A stretch of DNA of 39,009 nucleotides from a virus (IMGVR_UViG_3300025030_002128:1-39009); one strand, 5' to 3'; shown: positions 5,562-20,864, counted from the stretch's first letter. A program made the numbers and translations. The notes: generated by a model not told the origin, from the letters alone.

Positions 5562-5930
5562 ATGGATACGGTTTATAAGGTTGTAGAGAAGGATTGGGGC
5601 TGGGAAAAGTGGATCGCCTTAAATGATAAGTATTGTCTAAAAATGATTAGAATAAACAAGGGTCATAGGTGTAGCCTTCAATATCATGAATACAAGACAG
5701 AAACGACCTACATTCACGAAGGACAAGCTAAAATATGGCTCAAAAGAAAAGATGAGACCGATATGGTGCTCCATGAAAATTGTGGCCCTGGGACTATTTT
5801 GAATTTAAAGCCAGGTGATATACACAGAATAGAGGCAATTGAGGATCTTTTATTGTTTGAAGCTTCTACGCCTGAGGTTTGGGACGTGACACGATTGTCT
5901 GATGATTATGGACGAGAAGATAAAAAATAG
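5562..5930 (+). CDS. PMI-type cupin (sugar-phosphate isomerase-like)
   Basis: A 122-residue cupin like the C-terminal domain of type II mannose-6-phosphate isomerase. It has WGWEKW near residue 12, a metal-type motif QYHEYKTE near 44-51, PGDIHRIE near 84-91, and the family end motif STPE.WDVTRLSDDYGRED. Single-domain members of this group often sit in polysaccharide clusters, and the reaction is usually unproven. It lies directly before the nucleotidyltransferase-kinase gene and overlaps it, so a role in preparing that enzyme's substrate is plausible. A related cupin with the same WG[WY]E and KYC..K pattern lies at 16962. Confidence 0.8.
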   Translation: MDTVYKVVEKDWGWEKWIALNDKYCLKMIRINKGHRCSLQYHEYKTETTYIHEGQAKIWLKRKDETDMVLHENCGPGTILNLKPGDIHRIEAIEDLLLFEASTPEVWDVTRLSDDYGREDKK

Positions 5931-7557
5931 TTATAAGGTTGTTATATTAACAGCAGGGAAAGGTTCTAGGCTTGGTAATAGGACAACTTATTTTAATAAA
6001 GCGCTCCTCCGTGTTGGAGATAAGGCTGTCATATCACATACAATTGATCAATTTCCCACCGAAACAGAGTTCATAATTGCTGTTGGATATAAAGGAGATG
6101 TTGTAAAACAATATTTACAAATTTACCATTCAGATAGAAAATTTACATTTGTGGACGTGGACAAGTATTCAGAACCAGGATCTGGCCCAGGGTACGCCAT
6201 GATCAAATGCAAAGAGCATCTTCAATGTCCATTTTATTTTATTTCATGTGATTCAATAATAAAATGGAAAGAAATATGGTTACATAATTGGTCTGATTTA
6301 ACTCAAGATTTTCAAAATGTGAATTGGGGTGGTATTTCTAAAATAGATCTATCTTTAAAAAAACATTATTGCACCGTATCCAGTGCTATTATTGAAAAAA
6401 AGTTAGATAATAGAGGATTGGGTGCAATTACTTCTGTACACGACAAAGATGAAAAAGGTACTGAATTTGCTTTTACTGGAGTGGCTTTTATAAAAAATTA
6501 TGTTGATTTTTGGAAAAAACTTAAATATGCACAACCAACCGTAAATGAAGAAATACAAATAGCTCCTGTTGTTTTACAATTTGATAAAGTATATGGGCTA
6601 GAAGTTGATTGGTGGGACACAGGTAACGAAGAAGGATTACAAAAAGCAAGAGAACACTTCAAAGGAATTCAAAATCTAGATAAAGTTGATGAAGAAATAT
6701 ATGTCAATGAAGAAAGTGGCTTTGTTGTAAAATATTTCCATAATGAAAATATGGTTAAGTACAGAGTAGAGAGAACAAAAAAGCTAGGAGATACTGTTCC
6801 AAAAATTATATCCTGTTCTAAAAATTTTTATAAATATGAATACGTCAAAGGACAGGATTTATTTAAAATAGACAATCAACACGAAATTATGAAAGATCTG
6901 TTAAATTATACGCAAAAAAATCTATGGACCGACGTTAAACTAAAAAATTATGATGAATTAATTTTTGATGATATTTGTAAAAATTTTTATCACGATAAAA
7001 CTATGTCAAGATTAAACAAAGCACACGAGCAACTCGGCATTAGCGATACAGAACATATAATAAACAATAGAGAAGTTCCGTCATTGAAATATATGTTTGA
7101 GCGTATGAATTGGAAAGAAATATGCCATGGGATCCCATCTAACATTCATGGTGATTGGAACTTTTCTAATATTGTTTTTACGCCAGAAAAAACATTTAAG
7201 TTTTTGGATTGGCGCCAAGATTTTGGTGGGCTACTAGATTATGGAGACAGATATTATGATTTTGCTAAAATGTATGCCTGTCTCCTATGGCCGCACAATA
7301 GTGTAAAAAACAATCAATATAGCATTAACATTGAAGATGATTTTTGGATACACATACCAGACACTTTATTGAAATGTTCTAACATTTTAACAAAATGGTT
7401 ATTTGATAATGGATATGATGTTAGAAAAGCAAATATACTAACTTCAATTGTATGGCTTAATATGTCACCTTTGCACGAATTTCCGCTTAATAAACATCTA
7501 TATTTTTATGGAAAATTGCATCTATACGAATCGTTAATTGGAAAAAAATATGAATAA
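5902..7557 (+). CDS. Bifunctional sugar nucleotidyltransferase-kinase
   Basis: 551 residues with two enzyme domains. Residues about 5-250 form a GT-A-like nucleotidyltransferase, with the loop TAGKGSRLG, the SCDS metal/substrate segment, and WWDTGNEEGLQKA at the end. Residues about 270-540 resemble aminoglycoside/choline-kinase-type phosphotransferases, with IHGDWNFSNIVF (Brenner motif, catalytic Asp) and FLDWRQDF (metal-binding Asp). Such a fusion could phosphorylate a sugar or alditol and activate it to an NDP form. The substrate is unknown. Starts at 5902 and 5908 are both possible and both overlap the cupin gene. The next gene is a KdsC-like phosphatase, so this looks like part of one activation pathway. 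Confidence 0.82.
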   Translation: MIMDEKIKNSYKVVILTAGKGSRLGNRTTYFNKALLRVGDKAVISHTIDQFPTETEFIIAVGYKGDVVKQYLQIYHSDRKFTFVDVDKYSEPGSGPGYAMIKCKEHLQCPFYFISCDSIIKWKEIWLHNWSDLTQDFQNVNWGGISKIDLSLKKHYCTVSSAIIEKKLDNRGLGAITSVHDKDEKGTEFAFTGVAFIKNYVDFWKKLKYAQPTVNEEIQIAPVVLQFDKVYGLEVDWWDTGNEEGLQKAREHFKGIQNLDKVDEEIYVNEESGFVVKYFHNENMVKYRVERTKKLGDTVPKIISCSKNFYKYEYVKGQDLFKIDNQHEIMKDLLNYTQKNLWTDVKLKNYDELIFDDICKNFYHDKTMSRLNKAHEQLGISDTEHIINNREVPSLKYMFERMNWKEICHGIPSNIHGDWNFSNIVFTPEKTFKFLDWRQDFGGLLDYGDRYYDFAKMYACLLWPHNSVKNNQYSINIEDDFWIHIPDTLLKCSNILTKWLFDNGYDVRKANILTSIVWLNMSPLHEFPLNKHLYFYGKLHLYESLIGKKYE

Positions 7558-8044
7558 AAAAGAAAATTGTGTTTTCGTTTTGGATGTTGACGGTGTGATG
7601 ACCGACGGGGGTATGTGGTATACTAAAGATGAAAAGTTTCTTAAAATGTTTGGACCTGACGATCACGACGCAATAAAAGATTTAATGAAATTTATGCCAG
7701 TACAATTTATTACTGGCGATAGAAGAGGATATCCTATTGTTGAAAGACGAATAAAAGAAGAAATGAAGTGTGAACTAGAATTTGTTAGCCATAGACCAAA
7801 AGAACGATGGGAATGGATAAAAAATAAGTTTCCAGATCATGCAATTATTTTTATGGGCGATGGAGTGTATGATTGGTTCTCTTTGCAAAACTGTGATTAT
7901 GGCATTACAACCTCAGATGCTTTAGATCATGTGAAAGAGTGCGCAAATTATATTACAAAGCATATAGGCGGTAATAGGGCCGTCGCAGAGGCTTGCATTC
8001 ATATAATGGATTATTTAAAGTTTGATTGGAAAAAAGGTTTATGA
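7550..8044 (+). CDS. KdsC-like HAD phosphatase
   Basis: About 164 residues from the ATG at 7550. A TTG at 7538 would add four residues. HAD motif I is LDVDGVMTDGG near residues 11-21, motif II is ITGDR, a Lys/Arg-rich segment PKERWEWIK follows, and motif IV is FMGDGVYDW. Size and layout, with no cap domain, match KdsC (KDO-8-P phosphatase) and the phosphatase domain of some CMP-sialate synthetases, which dephosphorylate ulosonic-type sugars. Here it is coupled to the nucleotidyltransferase-kinase (8-bp overlap) and to a dehydrogenase (ATGA overlap), so its real substrate is probably an intermediate of this local pathway. Confidence 0.82.
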   Translation: MNKKENCVFVLDVDGVMTDGGMWYTKDEKFLKMFGPDDHDAIKDLMKFMPVQFITGDRRGYPIVERRIKEEMKCELEFVSHRPKERWEWIKNKFPDHAIIFMGDGVYDWFSLQNCDYGITTSDALDHVKECANYITKHIGGNRAVAEACIHIMDYLKFDWKKGL

Positions 8045-8823
8045 AAATAGATACTGACACAAAATTGTTTTTTTCTGTCGCGGGGAAACCTGGAAATTTT
8101 GGTTCATATATGTATAATTCTGCATTTGAAAAACTTGGAATAAATGCAATTTATAAACCATTGCAGCTAGATTGCAAAACAAATTTTGACAGATTCTTTG
8201 ATTTTCTTTTTGCATTAAAGCGAATAAATGCTTCGGGTTTGTCTGTATCAATGCCTTTCAAAAAATTTGCTGCTATATTGGGATTTTATAAATCAGAAGA
8301 AGTTAAAAACACAAATAACAGCAACACACTAAAATTTGAACATAACGGAGAAGTTAATTCAAAAACATATTGTTATAACACAGATTGCCTAGGTTTTGAA
8401 CAAGCCTGCGAAAATATCCTCAGCAGAGCTAAGAGTGCTGTGATATTTGGTACAGGCGCAGTTGCTGACAGCATCGCATATACTTTGAATAAACGAAACA
8501 TAAACTTTTTTTACACCAAAAATCCAGAAAATCTTATTGATAATAAGTTTGAATTTCTGATTAACGCAACACCCGTTGGGATGGATGGCATAGAAGATAC
8601 GATATTTAACAAGAAGATTGTAAAATATTATAAATATGTTTTTGACGTTGTTGTGAAAAAAGAAACAAATTTAATTAAACTTTCTAAAAATTCTATGATA
8701 GAGTGTGTGTCAGGGTGGGCAATGAGTAAGTGTCAATTGCGCGAGCAATTTAAAATATATACAGGTCAAGAATATCCAGAAGATCTATTAAACAATAATA
8801 TCAAGGAATTGGGATATGAATAA
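8041..8823 (+). CDS. Shikimate dehydrogenase (AroE)-like oxidoreductase
   Basis: 260 residues from the ATG at 8041, which overlaps the previous stop as ATGA. AroE hallmarks are SVSMPFKK with the catalytic-type Lys at 74, YNTDCLGF with Asp 115, a Rossmann loop FGTGAVADS near 137, INATPVGM near 175, and the late REQFKIYTG segment. The active site and cofactor site therefore look intact. In the N-terminal substrate loop, however, the usual SKSP serines that hold the shikimate carboxylate are not seen; the equivalent stretch reads GNFGSYMYN. I infer an NAD(P)-dependent dehydrogenase of this fold acting on another polyol or cyclic substrate within the sugar pathway rather than on shikimate. Confidence 0.82.
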   Translation: MKIDTDTKLFFSVAGKPGNFGSYMYNSAFEKLGINAIYKPLQLDCKTNFDRFFDFLFALKRINASGLSVSMPFKKFAAILGFYKSEEVKNTNNSNTLKFEHNGEVNSKTYCYNTDCLGFEQACENILSRAKSAVIFGTGAVADSIAYTLNKRNINFFYTKNPENLIDNKFEFLINATPVGMDGIEDTIFNKKIVKYYKYVFDVVVKKETNLIKLSKNSMIECVSGWAMSKCQLREQFKIYTGQEYPEDLLNNNIKELGYE

Positions 8824-9022
8824 TAAAAATGAATTTTTTGTTGTAGATAATAAAAAACAAGAAAAATATGAAATTACTTGGTGGGATGAAAATCATAAGT
8901 GCTATTGCTTTGTGGTTCCAAAAACAGACGCCAAAAGTTCCATTGCAGCTTTAAAATTAATTTTATTTGATAATCCTTTGGCTTCAAAATATTTTTTACT
9001 AAGAGGAGATCTATATGAATAA
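8816..9022 (+). CDS. Small unknown protein
   Basis: A 68-residue unrecognised protein. It is rich in aromatic and charged residues, with ITWWDE and YCFVVPKTD in the middle and FLLRGDLYE at the end. There is no signal peptide, membrane segment or metal motif. It starts within the end of the dehydrogenase gene (8-bp overlap) after AAGGAATTGG. Its own end overlaps the start of the GatZ-like gene and carries that gene's ribosome site (GAGGAG). It is expressed between two enzymes of one pathway and might be an accessory subunit, but that is only an inference from position. Confidence 0.55.
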   Translation: MNNKNEFFVVDNKKQEKYEITWWDENHKCYCFVVPKTDAKSSIAALKLILFDNPLASKYFLLRGDLYE

Positions 9023-10151
9023 ATTTCAAAAATTATATGATGCAATAAATTCTGGGAAGACCATTCTGTGTGTCGGTCCTATGAGCAAAAATTGCACAGA
9101 TGCGGCAATTGAACTTGCCAATGAAAATCAAATTCCAATAATTTTAATTCCAAGTCGTAGACAGGTTGAATGTAAATCTCTTGGTGGCGGATATGTTATG
9201 GATACAGAAGATTTTGTTCCATATGTTCGTACAAGGGACAAAGGAAATTATGTTTTTATTGAACGCGATCACGGAGGAGTTTACCAAGGAACAAATGAAT
9301 CAAAACTTGATTTAGAGAAAGCTACCGAAAATACGATGAAGTCATATTTTGCAGATGTTAACTGTGGTTTGGATATAGTTGAGTTGGATTGTTCACTCAT
9401 AAACAAAGATTTGAATAGTGTTCTACTTCACAACAGATTAATGTATCAATTTTGTGAAGACATAACAGAAAGTGAACATATTATATACGAATTTGAATTT
9501 GAAGAACATAGCGCAAAAAAAACAGACATAAAGGATTTTAAAAATGTCCTTGACTTTATTTCAAAAACAAAAAGAAATGACAATATAAAATTTGTTGTAG
9601 GCAATGTTGGTCTTTATGTACGCGAGGTGGAAAATGTTGGGCAAGTTGATTTTGATTTGCTAAAGGATCTTGTTGATCTCTCGGAAGGAGCTGGGTTGTA
9701 TTTTAAAGCTCACAATTGTGATTATATTGATTCAGAAACAGCAAGCAAAATGAACAAAGCTGGCGTTGCAGCAATAAATATTGCACCAGAATTTGGTGTA
9801 ATTGAAACACGTGCCCTCGGTGCAGAATTGCTTTTAAACGATCTAAACAATGAAAATCCTCTTTGTGAAGATATAATAGAAAGTGAATTTATAAAATTCA
9901 CAAATGTAGCTTTTGAGTCTAATAAATGGAAAAAGTGGATGATAGACGAAAATAAAAGTTTTGACAACAACAACGAAAGAAAAGGATATATGGCTGCAAT
10001 CGCTGGTCATTATGTCTTCAATCATCCAGAAGTTATTGAAATAAAACGTAAACTTCAAGAAAAGTATGATTTGGATTCTATTCTCAAGAATGCAGTTAAA
10101 GACAAAATAAAAGAATATTTGGTTTCATTAGGGTGGAAAATAAATGTGTGA
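9015..10151 (+). CDS. GatZ/KbaZ-like TIM-barrel aldolase-family protein
   Basis: A 378-residue protein resembling the GatZ/KbaZ family (subunit of class II tagatose-bisphosphate aldolase). The family's order of landmarks can be followed. RRQVEC..GGGYVMDTEDF stands for the NQVN..GGYTGMTPADF region, FIERDHGG for GGDHLGP, LDIVELDCS for KIHLDAS, and KAHNCDYIDSET followed by INIAPEFGVIETRAL for the H.TDY ... KVGPALTFA.REA segment. The ATG at 9015 has a strong GAGGAG site. The family is linked to ketose bisphosphate cleavage, usually as a partner of a catalytic subunit, and no partner is visible here. A role in building a ketose or ulosonic-type precursor is inferred from neighbours. Confidence 0.68.
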   Translation: MNKFQKLYDAINSGKTILCVGPMSKNCTDAAIELANENQIPIILIPSRRQVECKSLGGGYVMDTEDFVPYVRTRDKGNYVFIERDHGGVYQGTNESKLDLEKATENTMKSYFADVNCGLDIVELDCSLINKDLNSVLLHNRLMYQFCEDITESEHIIYEFEFEEHSAKKTDIKDFKNVLDFISKTKRNDNIKFVVGNVGLYVREVENVGQVDFDLLKDLVDLSEGAGLYFKAHNCDYIDSETASKMNKAGVAAINIAPEFGVIETRALGAELLLNDLNNENPLCEDIIESEFIKFTNVAFESNKWKKWMIDENKSFDNNNERKGYMAAIAGHYVFNHPEVIEIKRKLQEKYDLDSILKNAVKDKIKEYLVSLGWKINV

Positions 10152-13002: not shown

Positions 13003-13227
13003 ATGGGTGATACATTAAAAGATAGAGTTTCGGTGGTTGAGAAGTCCGTATCGGGTCTAGAAGGAGCAGTAAGAAGCGTTGCTCAACAACATAATGAATT
13101 GGTTAATTCTGTTGCTAAGCTTTCTGATACGTTGCTTGGGCTAACGACACAGGTTACACAATTAGCTAACACTGTAAAGAAATTAATGTCTGAAAAGAGC
13201 GCAGGCAGTGTCGCAAGATATAAGTAA
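13003..13227 (+). CDS. Small coiled-coil protein
   Basis: 74 residues from the ATG at 13003, chosen because AGGAGG lies just upstream. Nearly the whole protein is heptad-like, with hydrophobic V/L at regular spacing (VVEKSVSGLEGAV, VAKLSDTLLGLT, VTQLANTVKKLM). It looks like a small oligomeric coiled coil. It has no membrane segment. It is the only gene in this part of the cluster with its own promoter and strong ribosome site. Such short phage coiled coils can be chaperones, adaptors or tail-associated, and nothing here decides. Confidence 0.7.
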   Translation: MGDTLKDRVSVVEKSVSGLEGAVRSVAQQHNELVNSVAKLSDTLLGLTTQVTQLANTVKKLMSEKSAGSVARYK

Positions 13228-14002
13228 CAAAAAAATTCAATACAATAAACTAAACTTGTTAGACAAACAATTTAACGATCTTAGTGTTTGCGAGTTTGCT
13301 TATGTTAAAAACATGAAAACATATTGGAAATGCCTATGTGTCTGCGGAAATTACATAACAGTTAGAGGTTCAAGATTAACAAGCGGAAATACCAAATCGT
13401 GTGGTTGCAGACGGATAAAAACTAACAAAAGTAGATTAATTGATTTGTGTGGCCAAAAAATTGGGTTTTTAACTGTCCTAAACAGAGAATACTCTGATTG
13501 TGATAGAACTGTTTGGAAGTGTAGATGTACGTGTGGTAATGAAATTCTAGTTGATAGAAAATGTTTAAGAAAAAAATTAATTAGATCATGTGGGTGTAAA
13601 AGCAAACAACTTCGCGAAGAAACTACGTTAAAAAATTTTGGTGTTAAAAATCCTTCTTTTTCTATTGAAGTGTGTTCAAAAAGATCTAAAAATATTAATA
13701 AAAGAATTATTTCTCACAATTGGGAAACTGGAGATGGAATTATTTGTATAGCAAGTTACGAAAAAAAATTTACAGATTATTTAAATACTAACAAAATTAG
13801 ATTTGATTGGCAAATCCCTTTTAGAATGCCTTCTGGAAGTCTTTATATTGTAGATTGCTATTTAAAAGATTTAAATAAATATATTGAAATTAAAGGATAT
13901 AAAAGACCAAAAAGCATGATGAAGTGGGAGTGGTTTCATGAAAAATACCCCAATTCAGAATTATTAGATAAACAAAAACTAAAGGAAATGAAAATAATAT
14001 GA
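13208..14002 (+). CDS. Putative homing endonuclease, zinc ribbons plus PD-(D/E)XK nuclease
   Basis: 264 residues starting at a GTG inside the end of the coiled-coil gene. Two similar zinc-ribbon DNA-binding repeats are present. The first has WKCLCVCGN ... GNTKSCGC (residues about 38-62) and the second WKCRCTCGN ... LIRSCGC (about 100-125). The C-terminal third has a PD-(D/E)XK pattern: YEKKFTDYL, then IVDCYLKDL, then YIEIKGYKRP, followed by KWEWFHEKYPNSELLD. This arrangement is typical of free-standing phage homing nucleases that cut and copy themselves into relatives. It interrupts the glycan gene run, with no sign of an intron around it. Confidence 0.8.
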   Translation: MSQDISNKKIQYNKLNLLDKQFNDLSVCEFAYVKNMKTYWKCLCVCGNYITVRGSRLTSGNTKSCGCRRIKTNKSRLIDLCGQKIGFLTVLNREYSDCDRTVWKCRCTCGNEILVDRKCLRKKLIRSCGCKSKQLREETTLKNFGVKNPSFSIEVCSKRSKNINKRIISHNWETGDGIICIASYEKKFTDYLNTNKIRFDWQIPFRMPSGSLYIVDCYLKDLNKYIEIKGYKRPKSMMKWEWFHEKYPNSELLDKQKLKEMKII

Positions 14003-14775
14003 AACTAAGTTGCCTTATGACTGTGTATAATGAGGAAAGTTTTATTGAATATGCTATTGAATCTTGTTTACCTTACGTAGATCATCTCGTCGTCGTGGAA
14101 GGGGCATACCAAGAAACAATAAAACTAGGCGCAACTCCACACTCAACAGATAATACAGACGAAATTATTAAAAAAATTTACAAAATAAATGGAGAAGAAA
14201 AAATTATATATAAAAAAGAAAATGGAGAAACAGATAAAGACCAAAGAAATTTTGGTCTCGAAGAAATTAAAAGATTAAATCCAGATGGGTGGCTTTTAAT
14301 TATTGATGGCGACGAAGTTTACGAAGCAAGTACATTTAAAATGATAAGAACTGCCATGATGAACATGGACAGGTCTAACAAATATGCTGCATATTTTAAA
14401 AGCAAAACTTTTGTAAATGATCCATATCATATGACAGAGCAGGAATTTCCTAGATTATTTAAAATAACTCCAGAATGTAAATTTGTGAATGATAATTTTA
14501 TGGAGTGGCCAGATAAGGGAATAGGCTGGTATTCACCATATGTTATCAAAATTCCCTACATTTCCTATTTTCATTATAGTTTCTGCAAGGGAAGGGAAAA
14601 ATTTGAATTGAAGCGTAATTGGTGGATGAATAGAGGTTTTGGTCCACGTTTTGATTATGGTTGGAAAATTGACGAAACAGGAAAAATAGATGACCCGAAT
14701 CATGCCATACATGATTTCACAGGAATGCATCCAGCCATTATGAAGGGGCATCCATTATTTAAAAAAAATGCATAA
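13999..14775 (+). CDS. Glycosyltransferase, GT2/GT-A type
   Basis: A 258-residue glycosyltransferase. It has MKLSCLMTVYNEESFIEYAI at the start, a VVEGAYQET segment, and LLIIDGDEVYEA near residues 100-110 with DGD in the DXD position. The C terminus HDFTGMHPAIMKGHPLF matches the paralogue at 11027. It overlaps the end of the homing endonuclease by four bases, so the endonuclease insertion seems not to have damaged it. The product is probably one linkage of the phage-made glycan. Confidence 0.82.
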   Translation: MKLSCLMTVYNEESFIEYAIESCLPYVDHLVVVEGAYQETIKLGATPHSTDNTDEIIKKIYKINGEEKIIYKKENGETDKDQRNFGLEEIKRLNPDGWLLIIDGDEVYEASTFKMIRTAMMNMDRSNKYAAYFKSKTFVNDPYHMTEQEFPRLFKITPECKFVNDNFMEWPDKGIGWYSPYVIKIPYISYFHYSFCKGREKFELKRNWWMNRGFGPRFDYGWKIDETGKIDDPNHAIHDFTGMHPAIMKGHPLFKKNA

Positions 14776-15631
14776 TGTTGGAGTAATTGGTTGTGGATTC
14801 GTTGGTACGGCTGTTTCTACGTGTTTACAAAATATAGCAGAAGTAAGAGAACACGACAAATATAAAGATACCGAATCTCTAGATTCTGTTGTAAATAAAT
14901 CAGATATTATATTCATATGCTTACCAACGCCAATGGCGGAAGATGGAAGCTGCGATACATCTATTGTTGAAAATGAAATAGGTGAAATTTGCCGTATTGC
15001 GAAGAAGCCTAAGTCAATTGTTATAAAGTCAACAGTCACCCCAGGGACTACAGACAAACTTCAAAAAAAATATAAGAAACACGTATTTTTGTTCAACCCA
15101 GAATTTTTGACCGAGAGAAATTTTATTGCTGATTTTATGAATCAGGATAGAATTATTCTCGGCACATCAAATGATTTTAAACGCAATGAACTTACTCTTC
15201 GTGTTCATAAACTATATCAAGATTTTGTAAGATTGCAAAAGAAACCAGCATTGATTTATGATACAGAAACAAGAACTGCGGAAATGTTAAAATATATGAC
15301 AAACTCTTTTCTTGCTACCAAGGTTATATTTTTTAATGAAATGAAAGAAATATGTAATGCAGCAAATATAAAATATGATGATGTGGTTGGATTGATGAAA
15401 TTGGATGGGAGGATAGGGAAAACTCACATGGTTGTGCCAAATGAAGGAAAGCACGGCTTCGGTGGATCATGCTTCGTCAAAGATTTGAATGCACTTTCTG
15501 CATTTGCAAAAGAAATGGACCTTGATCCAATGATATTGGATTCTATTTGGACAAAAAACCTGCTTGTGCGTGAAGAATATGAATGGGAACAACTTGCTCA
15601 GGTGACGGGAGCATACAAAAAAAATGAGTAA
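14768..15631 (+). CDS. UDP-glucose/GDP-mannose dehydrogenase-like, short form
   Basis: 287 residues with the first two domains of the UDP-sugar 6-dehydrogenase family: Rossmann GVIGCGFVGTAV, FICLPTPMAEDGSCD, KSTVTPGTTD, FNPEFLTERNF, the central-helix ETRTAEMLKYMTN, and the catalytic-Cys segment GFGGSCFVKDLNAL (Cys near 235). Cellular enzymes are usually 390-450 residues, with a C-terminal UDP-binding domain that is absent here. The gene ends cleanly, overlapping the next ATG, so this looks like a settled short form rather than a frameshift. The reaction would be oxidation of an NDP-sugar C6 to the uronic acid. Whether the short form is active is unknown. Confidence 0.82.
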   Translation: MHNVGVIGCGFVGTAVSTCLQNIAEVREHDKYKDTESLDSVVNKSDIIFICLPTPMAEDGSCDTSIVENEIGEICRIAKKPKSIVIKSTVTPGTTDKLQKKYKKHVFLFNPEFLTERNFIADFMNQDRIILGTSNDFKRNELTLRVHKLYQDFVRLQKKPALIYDTETRTAEMLKYMTNSFLATKVIFFNEMKEICNAANIKYDDVVGLMKLDGRIGKTHMVVPNEGKHGFGGSCFVKDLNALSAFAKEMDLDPMILDSIWTKNLLVREEYEWEQLAQVTGAYKKNE

Positions 15632-16085
15632 AATAGTTTTCTCGAACGGAAATTTTGATGTGCTTCATGTAGGGCATTTTAACCTTTTGTCTTATTGCCG
15701 CCAACTCGCAGGGAAAGATGGACAAGTTTATGTTGCCATAGATTTAGACGAAAAAGTAAAACTTGATAAAGGACCACACAGACCAATATATCCGCACTCA
15801 ATACGCCGACAGCAACTATTAGATTTAACAGATTCAAATGGAAAATCTTTGGTTGATAAAACTTTTTTATTTAGTACAAACGAACAACTTTACGAGATGA
15901 TAAAAAGAGAAAAACCAAATATTATTGTGAAAGGAAGTGACTGGAAAGGAAATGTTATAGGTAGTGATCTAGCAGAAGTGGTTTTATTTCCAAGAATACC
16001 TTATTCTTCTACAGAAATTATACAAAAAATTCAACTAATGTCTCATTCGCAAATAGAAACATCAGAAGATGAGTGGATGTGGTAA
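15624..16085 (+). CDS. HldE/RfaE C-domain-like heptose-1-phosphate adenylyltransferase
   Basis: A 153-residue cytidylyltransferase-fold enzyme. Key sites are FSNGNFDVLHVGHFNLL with the HxGH nucleotide motif, RRQQLLDL, IVKGSDW, and the terminal PYSSTEIIQKI that matches the STT.II..I ending of the HldE nucleotidyltransferase domain. In the known pathway this domain makes ADP-heptose from heptose 1-phosphate and ATP. Here it is a separate gene placed before the kinase, the reverse of the HldE domain order. The following ATG overlaps its TAA. Glycerol-3-P or other cytidylyltransferases of this fold are less likely alternatives. Confidence 0.85.
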   Translation: MSKIVFSNGNFDVLHVGHFNLLSYCRQLAGKDGQVYVAIDLDEKVKLDKGPHRPIYPHSIRRQQLLDLTDSNGKSLVDKTFLFSTNEQLYEMIKREKPNIIVKGSDWKGNVIGSDLAEVVLFPRIPYSSTEIIQKIQLMSHSQIETSEDEWMW

Positions 16086-16975
16086 TGAGAATATTAGTTC
16101 TTGGTGACCCAATAATTGACGAATATTTGTTTGGCCGCGTTAATCGTATGTCTCCAGAAGATTCTACCATTCCAGTTTTTGATATAGAAAAAAAAGAGTA
16201 CCGACCAGGTGGATGTTTAAATACTGCCGTTAATTTAAAGGCAATGGGTCCAGAAAATGAAATTTATGCTCTAGCTCCTGTAAGCACGTTTACGTGGAAT
16301 ATGCTAGACAAACTTGGTGTACGTAGTCTTGTTCTTTTGTCGGAAGATTTTGAAGATGGTGAGACTTATTTAGAGTTTCCACAACATGAAGAACTCATTA
16401 AAACTCGTATTATTGATTTAGATAAAAACAATAAACAACTCATTAGAATAGATAATAAATTAAAATTTAATGAAAGAACTTCCCACTATTTTAAAAAATG
16501 GTTTTTATCAACAAATAAATTAAATTATGATTGCATTGTCATCTCAGATTACGAAAAAGGGTGCGTAGATCAAAGTGTAATAGATTTTGTTTCTTCATTT
16601 GAGGGACCAGTATTTGTTGATACAAAAAAGAAAGATTTATCTATTTGGAAAAATATAAAAAGATGTATAATAAAAATTAATAGTCAAGAATATTTGGCAG
16701 CAGCAAATGCAAATCTAATTAAAAATCTTATTGTGACCAGAGGGAAACATGGTTCGGTATGGTTTGAAAATGGCACACAAACATATATGTGTGAAACATT
16801 TGAAGTACAAGAACCCAATGTTATTGGTGCAGGGGACTGTTTCTTGAGTGGCCTTGTATTGAAATATATGGAAACAGAATCCATGGAAGAATCTCTAAAA
16901 TTTGCTACAAGGGCAGCTTCTGTTTCTGTTAAAAAATTTGGAACATCGGTCGTAGAGAAAAATGAGCTTGTTTGA
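16085..16975 (+). CDS. PfkB/RfaE N-domain-like heptose kinase
   Basis: About 296 residues from the ATG at 16085 (TAATG overlap). A GTG at 16073 would add four. Carbohydrate-kinase landmarks are LGDPIIDEYLFG, RMSPEDSTIPVF, GGCLNTAVNLKAMG, and the anion-hole/catalytic NVIGAGDCFLSG near the C terminus. GD.I.D.Y..G...R.SPE..PV is typical of the HldE/HldA kinase domain that phosphorylates heptose 7-phosphate at C1. With its upstream neighbour it forms a split HldE. The isomerase (GmhA) and a clear GmhB phosphatase are not in the window. Another sugar-phosphate substrate is possible. Confidence 0.83.
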   Translation: MRILVLGDPIIDEYLFGRVNRMSPEDSTIPVFDIEKKEYRPGGCLNTAVNLKAMGPENEIYALAPVSTFTWNMLDKLGVRSLVLLSEDFEDGETYLEFPQHEELIKTRIIDLDKNNKQLIRIDNKLKFNERTSHYFKKWFLSTNKLNYDCIVISDYEKGCVDQSVIDFVSSFEGPVFVDTKKKDLSIWKNIKRCIIKINSQEYLAAANANLIKNLIVTRGKHGSVWFENGTQTYMCETFEVQEPNVIGAGDCFLSGLVLKYMETESMEESLKFATRAASVSVKKFGTSVVEKNELV

Positions 16976-17366
16976 TAAAGAAGACAAGAGATACCATCAG
17001 AAGGGTTGGGGCTATGAATTTCACATAACCAATAACCCAAAATATTGTGGAAAGCTTTTATATATGGAAAAAAACAAAAAAATGAGCGTTCACTATCATG
17101 TGTTAAAAGATGAAGTGATGTATCTCCATAATGGATGTGTAGAAATTTGGTGGACAGATAGAAAAGATTTTGATATCTTAAAAAAAGAAATTGAAACACT
17201 AGGAAAAGAAAAAGTTTTAAATTTAACAGTACTACTTCCAGGTGAAAGTTTTCACGTACCTCAACAAAGAGTTCATCAAATTTTAGCTCTTGAAAATTCT
17301 AATATTTATGAGTTTTCTACAACAGACTACCCAGAAGATAGTTATAGAATTATCAAAGGTGATTAA
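16962..17366 (+). CDS. PMI-type cupin, second copy
   Basis: A 134-residue cupin related to the one at 5562. It has KGWGYEF near residue 14, YCGKLLYM, the metal-type VHYHVLKDEVMY near 44-55, LLPGESFHVPQQRVHQI, and STTDYPEDSYRIIKGD at the end. The D-R-x-x-x-G-D ending and WG[YW]E start are typical of sugar-phosphate-isomerase-like cupins in polysaccharide clusters. It overlaps the kinase gene by 14 bases, suggesting it supplies or modifies the sugar phosphate. It is the last gene of the plus-strand glycan run and converges on the minus-strand gene, overlapping its stop by four bases. Confidence 0.8.
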   Translation: MSLFDKEDKRYHQKGWGYEFHITNNPKYCGKLLYMEKNKKMSVHYHVLKDEVMYLHNGCVEIWWTDRKDFDILKKEIETLGKEKVLNLTVLLPGESFHVPQQRVHQILALENSNIYEFSTTDYPEDSYRIIKGD

Positions 17367-17725: not shown

Positions 17726-18556
17726 ATGAACTTACTAGATTTTATTAAGAATATATACAGTACATATACAAAGAGTACTATAAAATCTCATCCATCTCCA
17801 AAAAAAACAGTAATTGAACTCGTACAAGATCCAGAAGTTGTCTTGTGTAGACCTAAGCTCGTAAAAGCTTTTGATTTTGTTTTTACCTCTCAGAAAGACT
17901 CAAATGATGTTTTGGTTACTCAGGATATGTACGACGCTTTAAAAAAGCTTGAACTAGGAATAAAAGATTGTGGTGGTGAACTTAAAATAAATGCACTGTC
18001 GCGATCTTGGGAAAAGCAACAGCATCTTGTTGACCTTCATAACGCAGACGTAGAAGCACACAAGCTTGATCCATCAAAGCCGATCATACATGCCTACGCA
18101 GCACCTCCTGGAGGAAGCTATCATCAAGCACGCAGGGCAATTGATATTTCTCTTGGTGACTTAAAATTTACAGGATTAGAAAAAAAAGATTGGGTTTCTA
18201 AGCTATGGTCAGTTTATAAACCTTTGGGATTCACACCGATTATTAGTTCCCCAGATTTTGGAAAATCAGAAGCTTGGCATGCTGATTACCGAGGACCATG
18301 GCAGCATGTTCGCGATAAGATGGGCAATGTAACCGCAGCAAAGTGCGCCATTCTTGATGTTGGCAATTGGAACCCAAAAGAATCGCCTTCTAGGGTTAGA
18401 AATATGTTTATACAGGCTCAGCTTTTACGATTGGGTCAATATGATATTGGAGATGTAGATGGGATTATTGGCAAGAAGACTCAGGATGCAATTAGAAAGC
18501 TCGGCATAGTTGAAATTAGTCTAAATTCTATTGCGTTGATCCTTTCCAGAATGTAA
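17726..18556 (+). CDS. Endolysin: M15/VanY-type peptidase with peptidoglycan-binding domain
   Basis: A 276-residue protein. The central domain has the zinc-peptidase pattern of D-Ala-D-Ala carboxypeptidase/M15 endolysins: SYHQARRAIDI (zinc His and Asp, residues about 131-141) and EAWHADYRG (catalytic Glu and third zinc ligand, about 181-189). One departure is Arg in place of the usual Gly of SxHxxGxAxD. Residues about 223-276 form a PG_binding_1-like domain (QLLRLGQYDIGDVDGIIGKK, then TQDAIR). There is no signal peptide, so release would need a holin or similar. The likely role is cutting host peptidoglycan peptides at lysis. Confidence 0.85.
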   Translation: MNLLDFIKNIYSTYTKSTIKSHPSPKKTVIELVQDPEVVLCRPKLVKAFDFVFTSQKDSNDVLVTQDMYDALKKLELGIKDCGGELKINALSRSWEKQQHLVDLHNADVEAHKLDPSKPIIHAYAAPPGGSYHQARRAIDISLGDLKFTGLEKKDWVSKLWSVYKPLGFTPIISSPDFGKSEAWHADYRGPWQHVRDKMGNVTAAKCAILDVGNWNPKESPSRVRNMFIQAQLLRLGQYDIGDVDGIIGKKTQDAIRKLGIVEISLNSIALILSRM

Positions 18557-20141: not shown

Positions 20142-20864
20142 ATGAAGAAAATTTTAATTATTTCTTTGTCTTTTTCTATTTTGGTTCCTGCAACTTTAGG
20201 TTTTTTTCTGTATCTCACATACAAGGATTTACAGAATACAAAGCAAAGTCTATCTTCAGTCATGCAGAAAACTCATGAAAATAATACAAAAATTGGATCT
20301 GTCTCAGAACAGATTTCTGTTTTGGACGCATCAATTTCCCCAGAAGACAAACGCTGGGCAGTAATAAAACAGGTTAGAAAAACTATCCAAGAAGACATAA
20401 AATTAAATGGTCTAGGCAGAGAATTAAGTATTAAAGACTTAACAGAAATTTCCTCTGCTGTTATAGACTATTCTGAAGAATATGATGTTGAAAAAAGTTT
20501 TATTCTTGCTGTAATGCGAACAGAATCAGCTTACAATAAAAGGGCTTTGTCTCACGCTGGAGCCCAAGGATTGATGCAATTAATGCCAGCCACAGCAAAA
20601 GAGTGTGCCGATGATATTAATAAAAAATATTACAATGTGCACAAACCAAAAGATAACATCCAGTTGGGTGTTTGGTATTTGGCTAAAATGTCAAATAGAT
20701 TTAAAAATGATATAGAGCTTGTTATAAGAGCATACAATGCTGGTCCTACCATGGTAGAGAAAGTATCTGTAGGTGATATTTCTGATTATCCTACCGAAAC
20801 TAAACAATATCTTAAAAAAGTTTTAGAATGGAAAACAAAATACGAAAATGCAGGTATCAATTAA
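20142..20864 (+). CDS. Membrane-anchored lytic transglycosylase (SLT domain)
   Basis: 240 residues. An N-terminal membrane segment or uncleaved signal (residues about 4-26, ILIISLSFSILVPATLGFFL) is followed by a helical linker to about 70 and an SLT/goose-lysozyme-like domain. Hallmarks are VMRTESAYN with the catalytic Glu near 127, GAQGLMQLMPATA near 140, QLGVWYLAKM and AYNAGP near 198. It should cleave the glycan strands of peptidoglycan from the periplasmic side while tethered to the inner membrane. It has its own promoter and a strong ribosome site. It may serve lysis alongside the M15 endolysin or act at entry. Position favours lysis. Confidence 0.88.
   Translation: MKKILIISLSFSILVPATLGFFLYLTYKDLQNTKQSLSSVMQKTHENNTKIGSVSEQISVLDASISPEDKRWAVIKQVRKTIQEDIKLNGLGRELSIKDLTEISSAVIDYSEEYDVEKSFILAVMRTESAYNKRALSHAGAQGLMQLMPATAKECADDINKKYYNVHKPKDNIQLGVWYLAKMSNRFKNDIELVIRAYNAGPTMVEKVSVGDISDYPTETKQYLKKVLEWKTKYENAGIN

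Follow-up and report, generated by a model that had tools for sequence, protein, structure and literature searches.

Why would a phage carry, in a single overlapping run, genes for a cupin isomerase, a nucleotidyltransferase fused to a kinase, a KdsC-like phosphatase, a relative of shikimate dehydrogenase, and a GatZ-like barrel? The question is raised by positions 5562-10151 of the IMG/VR virus record IMGVR_UViG_3300025030_002128 (39,009 bases, referred to in full as the window), a tailed-phage fragment encoding a baseplate wedge protein and a head maturation protease. Judged by homology, catalytic residues, and genomic context, this gene set, here termed the cassette, probably encodes a modular nucleotide-sugar pathway in which a ketose phosphate would be remodelled and converted to a nucleoside diphosphate (NDP)-sugar. 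The cassette is real, widespread, and undescribed in the accessible literature; searches for the gene set found no description of it, most subscription papers lying outside reach. A preliminary description of this DNA had proposed a donor new to phages, and for the cassette this novelty holds in the literature searched; the chain-extended or cyclic product that it envisaged is possible at most.

The six open reading frames (ORFs), five enzyme genes and a gene for a 68-aa protein, were all found where that description placed them, and each pair of neighbours shares 4-29 bases:

5562..5930, + strand: cupin resembling type II phosphomannose isomerase (PMI), 122 aa (PF01050); probable ketose/aldose isomerase
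5902..7557, + strand: NTP-transferase and APH-type kinase fusion (NTK), 551 aa (PF12804, APH); probable sugar C1 kinase and NDP-sugar pyrophosphorylase
7550 (ATG)-8044, alternative start 7538 (TTG), + strand: KdsC-like C0 HAD phosphatase (TIGR01670, PDB KdsC/YrbI relatives)
8041 (ATG)-8823, alternative start 8026 (TTG), + strand: AroE-like dehydrogenase (NCBIfam aroE, fold model); putative optional redox step
8816..9022, + strand: 68-aa orphan ORF, no family match
9015..10151, + strand: GatZ/KbaZ-like TIM barrel, 378 aa (fold model, residues); probable ketose-phosphate C4 epimerase

Clear Shine-Dalgarno-like stretches precede the cupin start (GAAGAGGA) and the GatZ start (AGAGGAG), and the cassette is flanked by glycosyltransferase genes, with GT2 members nearby, and by genes for nucleotide-sugar enzymes.

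Conservation of the cassette

Loci were fetched from IMG/VR with one gene alone (GatZ, AroE, or KdsC). The 66 GatZ-selected and 56 AroE-selected loci were not dereplicated and partly overlap, the 54 KdsC-selected loci were dereplicated at 90% identity, and all counts vary with profile thresholds and with the contigs reached by pattern scans. Within 3 kb of GatZ, an NTK gene was present in 66 of 66 evaluable loci, a small HAD gene in 64, a cupin gene in 62, and an AroE gene in 19; within 3.5 kb of AroE, NTK was present in 56 of 56 evaluable loci and GatZ in 48 of 56. All five enzyme genes (cupin, NTK, KdsC, AroE, GatZ) occur in 18 of the 54 KdsC-selected loci, 10 others carry four of them without AroE, and 14 combine NTK and KdsC with a SIS(PHI) gene and a homologue of ribulose-phosphate 3-epimerase (RPE) and have neither GatZ nor cupin. 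One contig (L215) reproduces the gene order of the window, minus the 68-aa gene. The genes thus do not assort independently, and the linkage, very strong in all three sets, bears out the earlier proposal that they belong to one sugar-activation pathway. Scores of divergent viral contigs, and bacterial loci as well, show these genes together again, so that their association goes beyond chance. The 68-aa gene is the exception: family searches gave it no match, no fetched locus holds a homologue, and it is missing from the syntenic sister phage L256.

Features of the cassette enzymes

The GatZ-like protein scores below the Pfam cut-off for PF08013 (6e-4, 19.1 bits versus 26.7), which its relative in L233 passes with 47.0 bits. 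A PDB sequence search missed GatZ and a fold search found it: the AlphaFold model (pLDDT 91) lies within the GatZ fold, as the preliminary description had supposed, with 2fiq and 3txv of the GatZ family as the top Foldseek matches (TM by query 0.75-0.79). A scan for close relatives with the window GatZ alone gave zero matches, and relatives had to be gathered with alignments. Residues D85, H86, E163, and H233 correspond to D87, H88, E171, and H257 of E. coli GatZ, that is, to the base Asp87 and the metal ligands His88, Glu171, and His257; D85, H86, and H233 are kept in 27 of 27 relatives and E163 in 26 of 27. E. coli GatZ and KbaZ were shown to convert fructose-6-phosphate to tagatose-6-phosphate as 4-epimerases, and metal ligands and a base were proposed (PMC11907403). 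Because of this activity, the conserved ligands and base, and the replacement of GatZ by an RPE homologue in other loci (see below), the window protein is probably a ketose-phosphate C4 epimerase, a reading that fits better than the tagatose-bisphosphate aldol chemistry first suggested for it. Fold, metal ligands, and catalytic Asp are those of the E. coli enzymes; unlike them, it stands in a biosynthetic rather than a phosphotransferase system (PTS) context.

Some GatZ matches fall elsewhere. Those in Listeria phages (H2-H5) were set aside, as they lie in PTS-type operons and appear to be bacterial DNA in unverified assemblies; four records are labelled Listeria phage LM (OR846727, OR846732, OR848100, OR848179), and in OR846727 a bacterial PTS operon surrounds GatZ and resembles host DNA. 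Bacteroidetes contigs (L101-L110, L112-L114) hold a GatZ-like gene of the subtype seen in marine phages (~320 aa), alone amid housekeeping genes and in several contigs near apparent succinate dehydrogenase genes.

The cupin passes the PF01050 cut-off (1.9e-6, 28.5 bits versus 23.6) and displays the PMI-like metal pattern Q-x-H...E...H (S38-L-Q-Y-H42 ... E47 ... H88), common to phage and bacterial homologues; in many loci it is fused onto the NTK N-terminus. NTK matches PF12804 (5e-7) and APH (2.5e-4) and carries the motifs GKGSRL at 19, WWDTGN at 237, HGDWNFSN at 416, and DWRQDF at 436. Its NTP-transferase half is also similar to cytidylyltransferases, and MurU models match it weakly. The phosphatase matches TIGR01670 (1.1e-17, 64.4 bits) without reaching the curated cut-off of 106.95 bits, and its DxDG motif does not vary among 8 homologues from phages and bacteria. 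Likeness to KdsC need not imply the ulosonic sugar that the preliminary description attached to it. A KDO-like product was not adopted; most marine cassettes have a small HAD of another family in the KdsC place, and the window genes covered by Pfam scans include no KdsA or KdsB, although no search was dedicated to them.

In E. coli AroE, Ser14 and Ser16 bind the shikimate carboxylate, Asn86 binds the ring, and Lys65 and Asp102 are catalytic. The AroE-like protein matches PF08501 (1.8e-7) and NCBIfam aroE (5e-29), under every NCBIfam cut-off, and its AlphaFold model (pLDDT 82, pTM 0.83) falls within the AroE fold, again as anticipated, with HI0607 (1npy) and Aquifex AroE (2hk9 and kin) as top Foldseek matches (TM 0.76-0.81). 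It has in common with AroE and HI0607 this fold together with the Lys65, Asn86, Asp102, and Gln244 equivalents, and differs in that the clamp serines are lost in the phage homologues. In two alignments, Lys65, Asn86, and Asp102 are invariant (25/25 and 21/21 homologues) and Gln244 is nearly so (22/25 and 18/21); Ser14 is retained in 0/25 and 2/21, and the Ser16 position is Cys in 22/25 and Gly in 21/21. With the carboxylate clamp gone, the protein is not filed here as a shikimate dehydrogenase; since the catalytic Lys/Asp pair and the Asn remain, it should, by its residues, be a polyol or keto-sugar dehydrogenase.

Core genes and exchangeable modules

KdsC, GatZ, cupin, and NTK occur together without AroE in five bacterial contigs, from Ca. 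Desulfatibia (L095), Prochlorococcus (L096), Spirochaetales (L097, L098), and Bacteriovoracaceae (L099), and in L095-L098 they sit, judged by eye, amid apparent glycan-cluster genes. In L256, KdsC is followed directly by GatZ, with no AroE between them. On the NTK tree, the presence of AroE can be explained with 3 changes, against 20.6 when labels are shuffled, as would be expected if NTK were tuned to the AroE product. Given the bacterial loci, L256, and the way AroE follows the NTK tree, the core comprises phosphatase, GatZ, cupin, and NTK, and AroE is optional. The five-enzyme unit envisaged earlier therefore holds as a linked set, and the unit proper is a four-gene core, found also in bacteria, to which AroE is an optional fifth.

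GatZ and cupin are jointly replaced in other loci by an RPE-type 3-epimerase (PF00834) and a SIS isomerase. GatZ and RPE co-occur in 0 of 54 loci (31 versus 14; Fisher p 2.5e-7, an optimistic value, as the loci share ancestry). Cassettes of NTK, KdsC, SIS, and RPE homologue without GatZ or cupin (L185 4569-7435, L188 6992-10814, L193, L222, and others) can be read as a parallel rare-sugar route. A further replacement is seen in eight AroE loci, where SIS and the N- and C-terminal halves of transketolase take the place of GatZ; L170 alone has both. The SIS gene (PF13580, GmhA-like) and the split transketolase lie between NTK and AroE in L014/L181, L123, L124, L154, L155, L161, L169-L171, and L179. 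In the sister contigs L183/L184 they precede KdsC and AroE, with no GatZ within the available stretch.

Apparent transketolases in L059, L079, L083, and L086 were rejected, the match being to a methyltransferase-like tail fused to the L004 transketolase. Very short split pairs (~205 + 155 aa), below ordinary half size, were noticed in phage glycan regions of L040, L048, L065, L066, L087, and L185.

Relation to known systems

The DNA of phage RB69 carries arabinosyl-hydroxymethylcytosine, for which ORF055c and ORF53_52c were proposed to supply the donor, the UDP-arabinose route being called unclear (PMC6024577). The RB69-like phage JK42 encodes, at short distance from each other, an NTK homologue, a small HAD, and a protein annotated as arabinose-5-phosphate isomerase. 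The window NTK aligns with the JK42 NTP-transferase/kinase over both domains (hhalign probability 98.4, E 5e-15, 386 columns), and the JK42 small HAD is 32% identical to one cassette HAD. The RB69-like (Mosigvirus) module thus resembles the cassette in having an NTP-transferase-kinase homologue, a sugar-phosphate isomerase, and a small HAD; it differs in that the isomerase is of SIS type, that no GatZ, KdsC, cupin, or AroE is seen alongside, and that its sugar goes to DNA. No window protein matches the SIS or PHI models built for this analysis, with which a counterpart of the arabinose-5-phosphate isomerase was sought, and no dCMP hydroxymethylase was noticed among the window genes scanned.

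Other pathways share the logic with other parts. Heptose synthesis proceeds by isomerisation of a ketose phosphate to an aldose phosphate, C1 phosphorylation, removal of the terminal phosphate, and activation. The D-glycero-D-manno-heptose pathway (GmhA, HldE, GmhB) follows the same order of logic as the cassette, with SIS and a PfkB kinase where the cassette uses cupin and APH and adds GatZ. AmgK/MurU, like NTK, couples an APH-type anomeric kinase with a sugar-1-phosphate NTP-transferase (a uridylyltransferase in MurU), whereas the NTK domains are fused and have no MurNAc context. Type II PMI-GMP enzymes (AlgA/ManC) unite a PMI-type cupin and an NTP-transferase in one protein, as some cassette loci do; in the latter, however, the cupin is N-terminal, and phosphatase and kinase would stand in for the mutase step.

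A proposed pathway and its alternatives

In the proposed pathway, GatZ would invert C4 of a host ketose phosphate (e.g. fructose-6-phosphate to tagatose-6-phosphate) by metal-dependent retro-aldol/aldol chemistry, the PMI-type cupin would interconvert ketose and aldose, and the KdsC-like HAD would remove the terminal phosphate and so drive the pathway onward. Within NTK, the APH domain would then phosphorylate the free sugar at its anomeric hydroxyl and the NTP-transferase domain would form the NDP-sugar, to be used by the nearby GT2 glycosyltransferases. The AroE-like enzyme would carry out ketone/alcohol redox on a polyhydroxylated, carboxylate-free substrate, either on the NTK substrate itself or earlier in the route, giving a modified sugar in the AroE subtype. 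The observations bear on gene content and linkage, protein folds, conserved catalytic residues, and the swapping of modules; the substrates, the order of isomerase and phosphatase, the nucleotide, and the final sugar are inferred. Our guess is that fructose-6-phosphate input would yield a hexose of talo or galacto configuration, either as such or modified by AroE, and, from the GT2 neighbours, we favour a glycan as its destination. Because of the module replacements and the JK42 grouping of isomerase, NTK homologue, and HAD, NTK and phosphatase can be read as an activation engine whose partner enzymes set the sugar.

Several observations weigh against this pathway. Sequence identity between the window GatZ and its E. 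coli namesake is only 17%, and the former falls under the Pfam cut-off. Lys279, a substrate contact in E. coli GatZ, is Asn in 27 of 27 relatives, which places the GatZ-like proteins in a separate subfamily. Partner genes are missing at a few KdsC and NTK loci (L008, L187, L217, L258, L260-L262). The RB69-like NTK is distant from that of the window, the APH match lies under the Pfam cut-off, and in vitro work on the homologue TH1_060 of phage Thanatos detected no function (PMC12838424). Moreover, a transketolase in place of GatZ suits chain remodelling equally well as epimerisation. Such remodelling, in which GatZ (or transketolase with SIS) would lengthen a ketose phosphate, for instance to a heptulose, by aldol or ketol transfer and feed an NDP-heptose-like donor by GmhA/HldE/GmhB logic, is unlikely. 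In its favour, SIS and split transketolase are present in AroE loci and in L183/L184, and the window itself encodes a PfkB kinase and an RfaE2-like cytidylyltransferase (15624-16975). Yet neither SIS nor transketolase was found in the window, most GatZ loci have none, and the RPE-type enzymes that replace GatZ in the other branch add no chain length.

AroE has retained the ketone-reducing Lys/Asp and, as hydroxyl binders, Asn86/Gln244, while its carboxylate serines are lost; this would also suit a pathway to an NDP-alditol, as would the cytidylyltransferase-like NTP-transferase half. A polyol, formed by AroE through reduction of a free ketose or keto-sugar, would be phosphorylated and activated by NTK, as in CDP-glycerol and CDP-ribitol. 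This is quite unlikely; a conserved aldose-ketose isomerase would serve no purpose for a polyol, and since AroE is absent from the majority of cassettes that share this cupin and NTK, a polyol is not the general product. Very unlikely, too, is the idea that the AroE subtype makes a cyclitol, such as a carbocyclic (carba-)sugar, in activated form on a skeleton supplied by GatZ or transketolase. It arises because a ring with CH2OH in the place of the shikimate COOH would suit an AroE relative that lacks the carboxylate clamp; if true, cyclitol donors would here be made without any known sugar-phosphate cyclase. Sugar salvage, as a catabolic or host-takeover set, is barely credible. GatZ relatives do occur in PTS operons (L003; E. 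coli gat) and singly among Bacteroidetes housekeeping genes; against it, every evaluable viral locus with GatZ also has an NTP-transferase, no transporter was seen adjoining GatZ, and the surroundings are glycosyltransferases and nucleotide-sugar epimerases.

The nucleotide-sugar pathway proposed here, if correct, suggests a testable general rule for the production of unusual activated sugars by phages: one activation engine (kinase-NTP-transferase and phosphatase) is combined with interchangeable remodelling modules, namely GatZ and cupin, RPE and SIS, SIS and transketolase, or SIS alone in the RB69-like phages. It would offer an answer to the question of how RB69 makes its arabinose donor, would make proteins labelled as aldolase chaperones or shikimate dehydrogenases candidates for rare-sugar enzymes, and would add new monosaccharides to the glycans of phages and marine bacteria. 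As the parts are swapped between viruses as modules, the final sugar should be accessible by simple enzyme assays.

Other genes in the window

A second tight run at 14768-17366 encodes a UDP-glucose/GDP-mannose dehydrogenase-like protein, an RfaE2-like cytidylyltransferase (15624), a PfkB kinase (16073), and a second PMI-like cupin (16962), and can be read as giving this phage another sugar-activation set, of HldE-like type. At 13208-14002, a 264-aa protein with repeated CxCG zinc-ribbon-like units, no Pfam match, and a homologue in L183 looks like the product of a homing-endonuclease type gene within the glycan cluster. A VanY-type carboxypeptidase with a peptidoglycan-binding domain, a probable endolysin, is encoded at 17726-18556, and an SLT transglycosylase with a hydrophobic N-terminal segment at 20142-20864.

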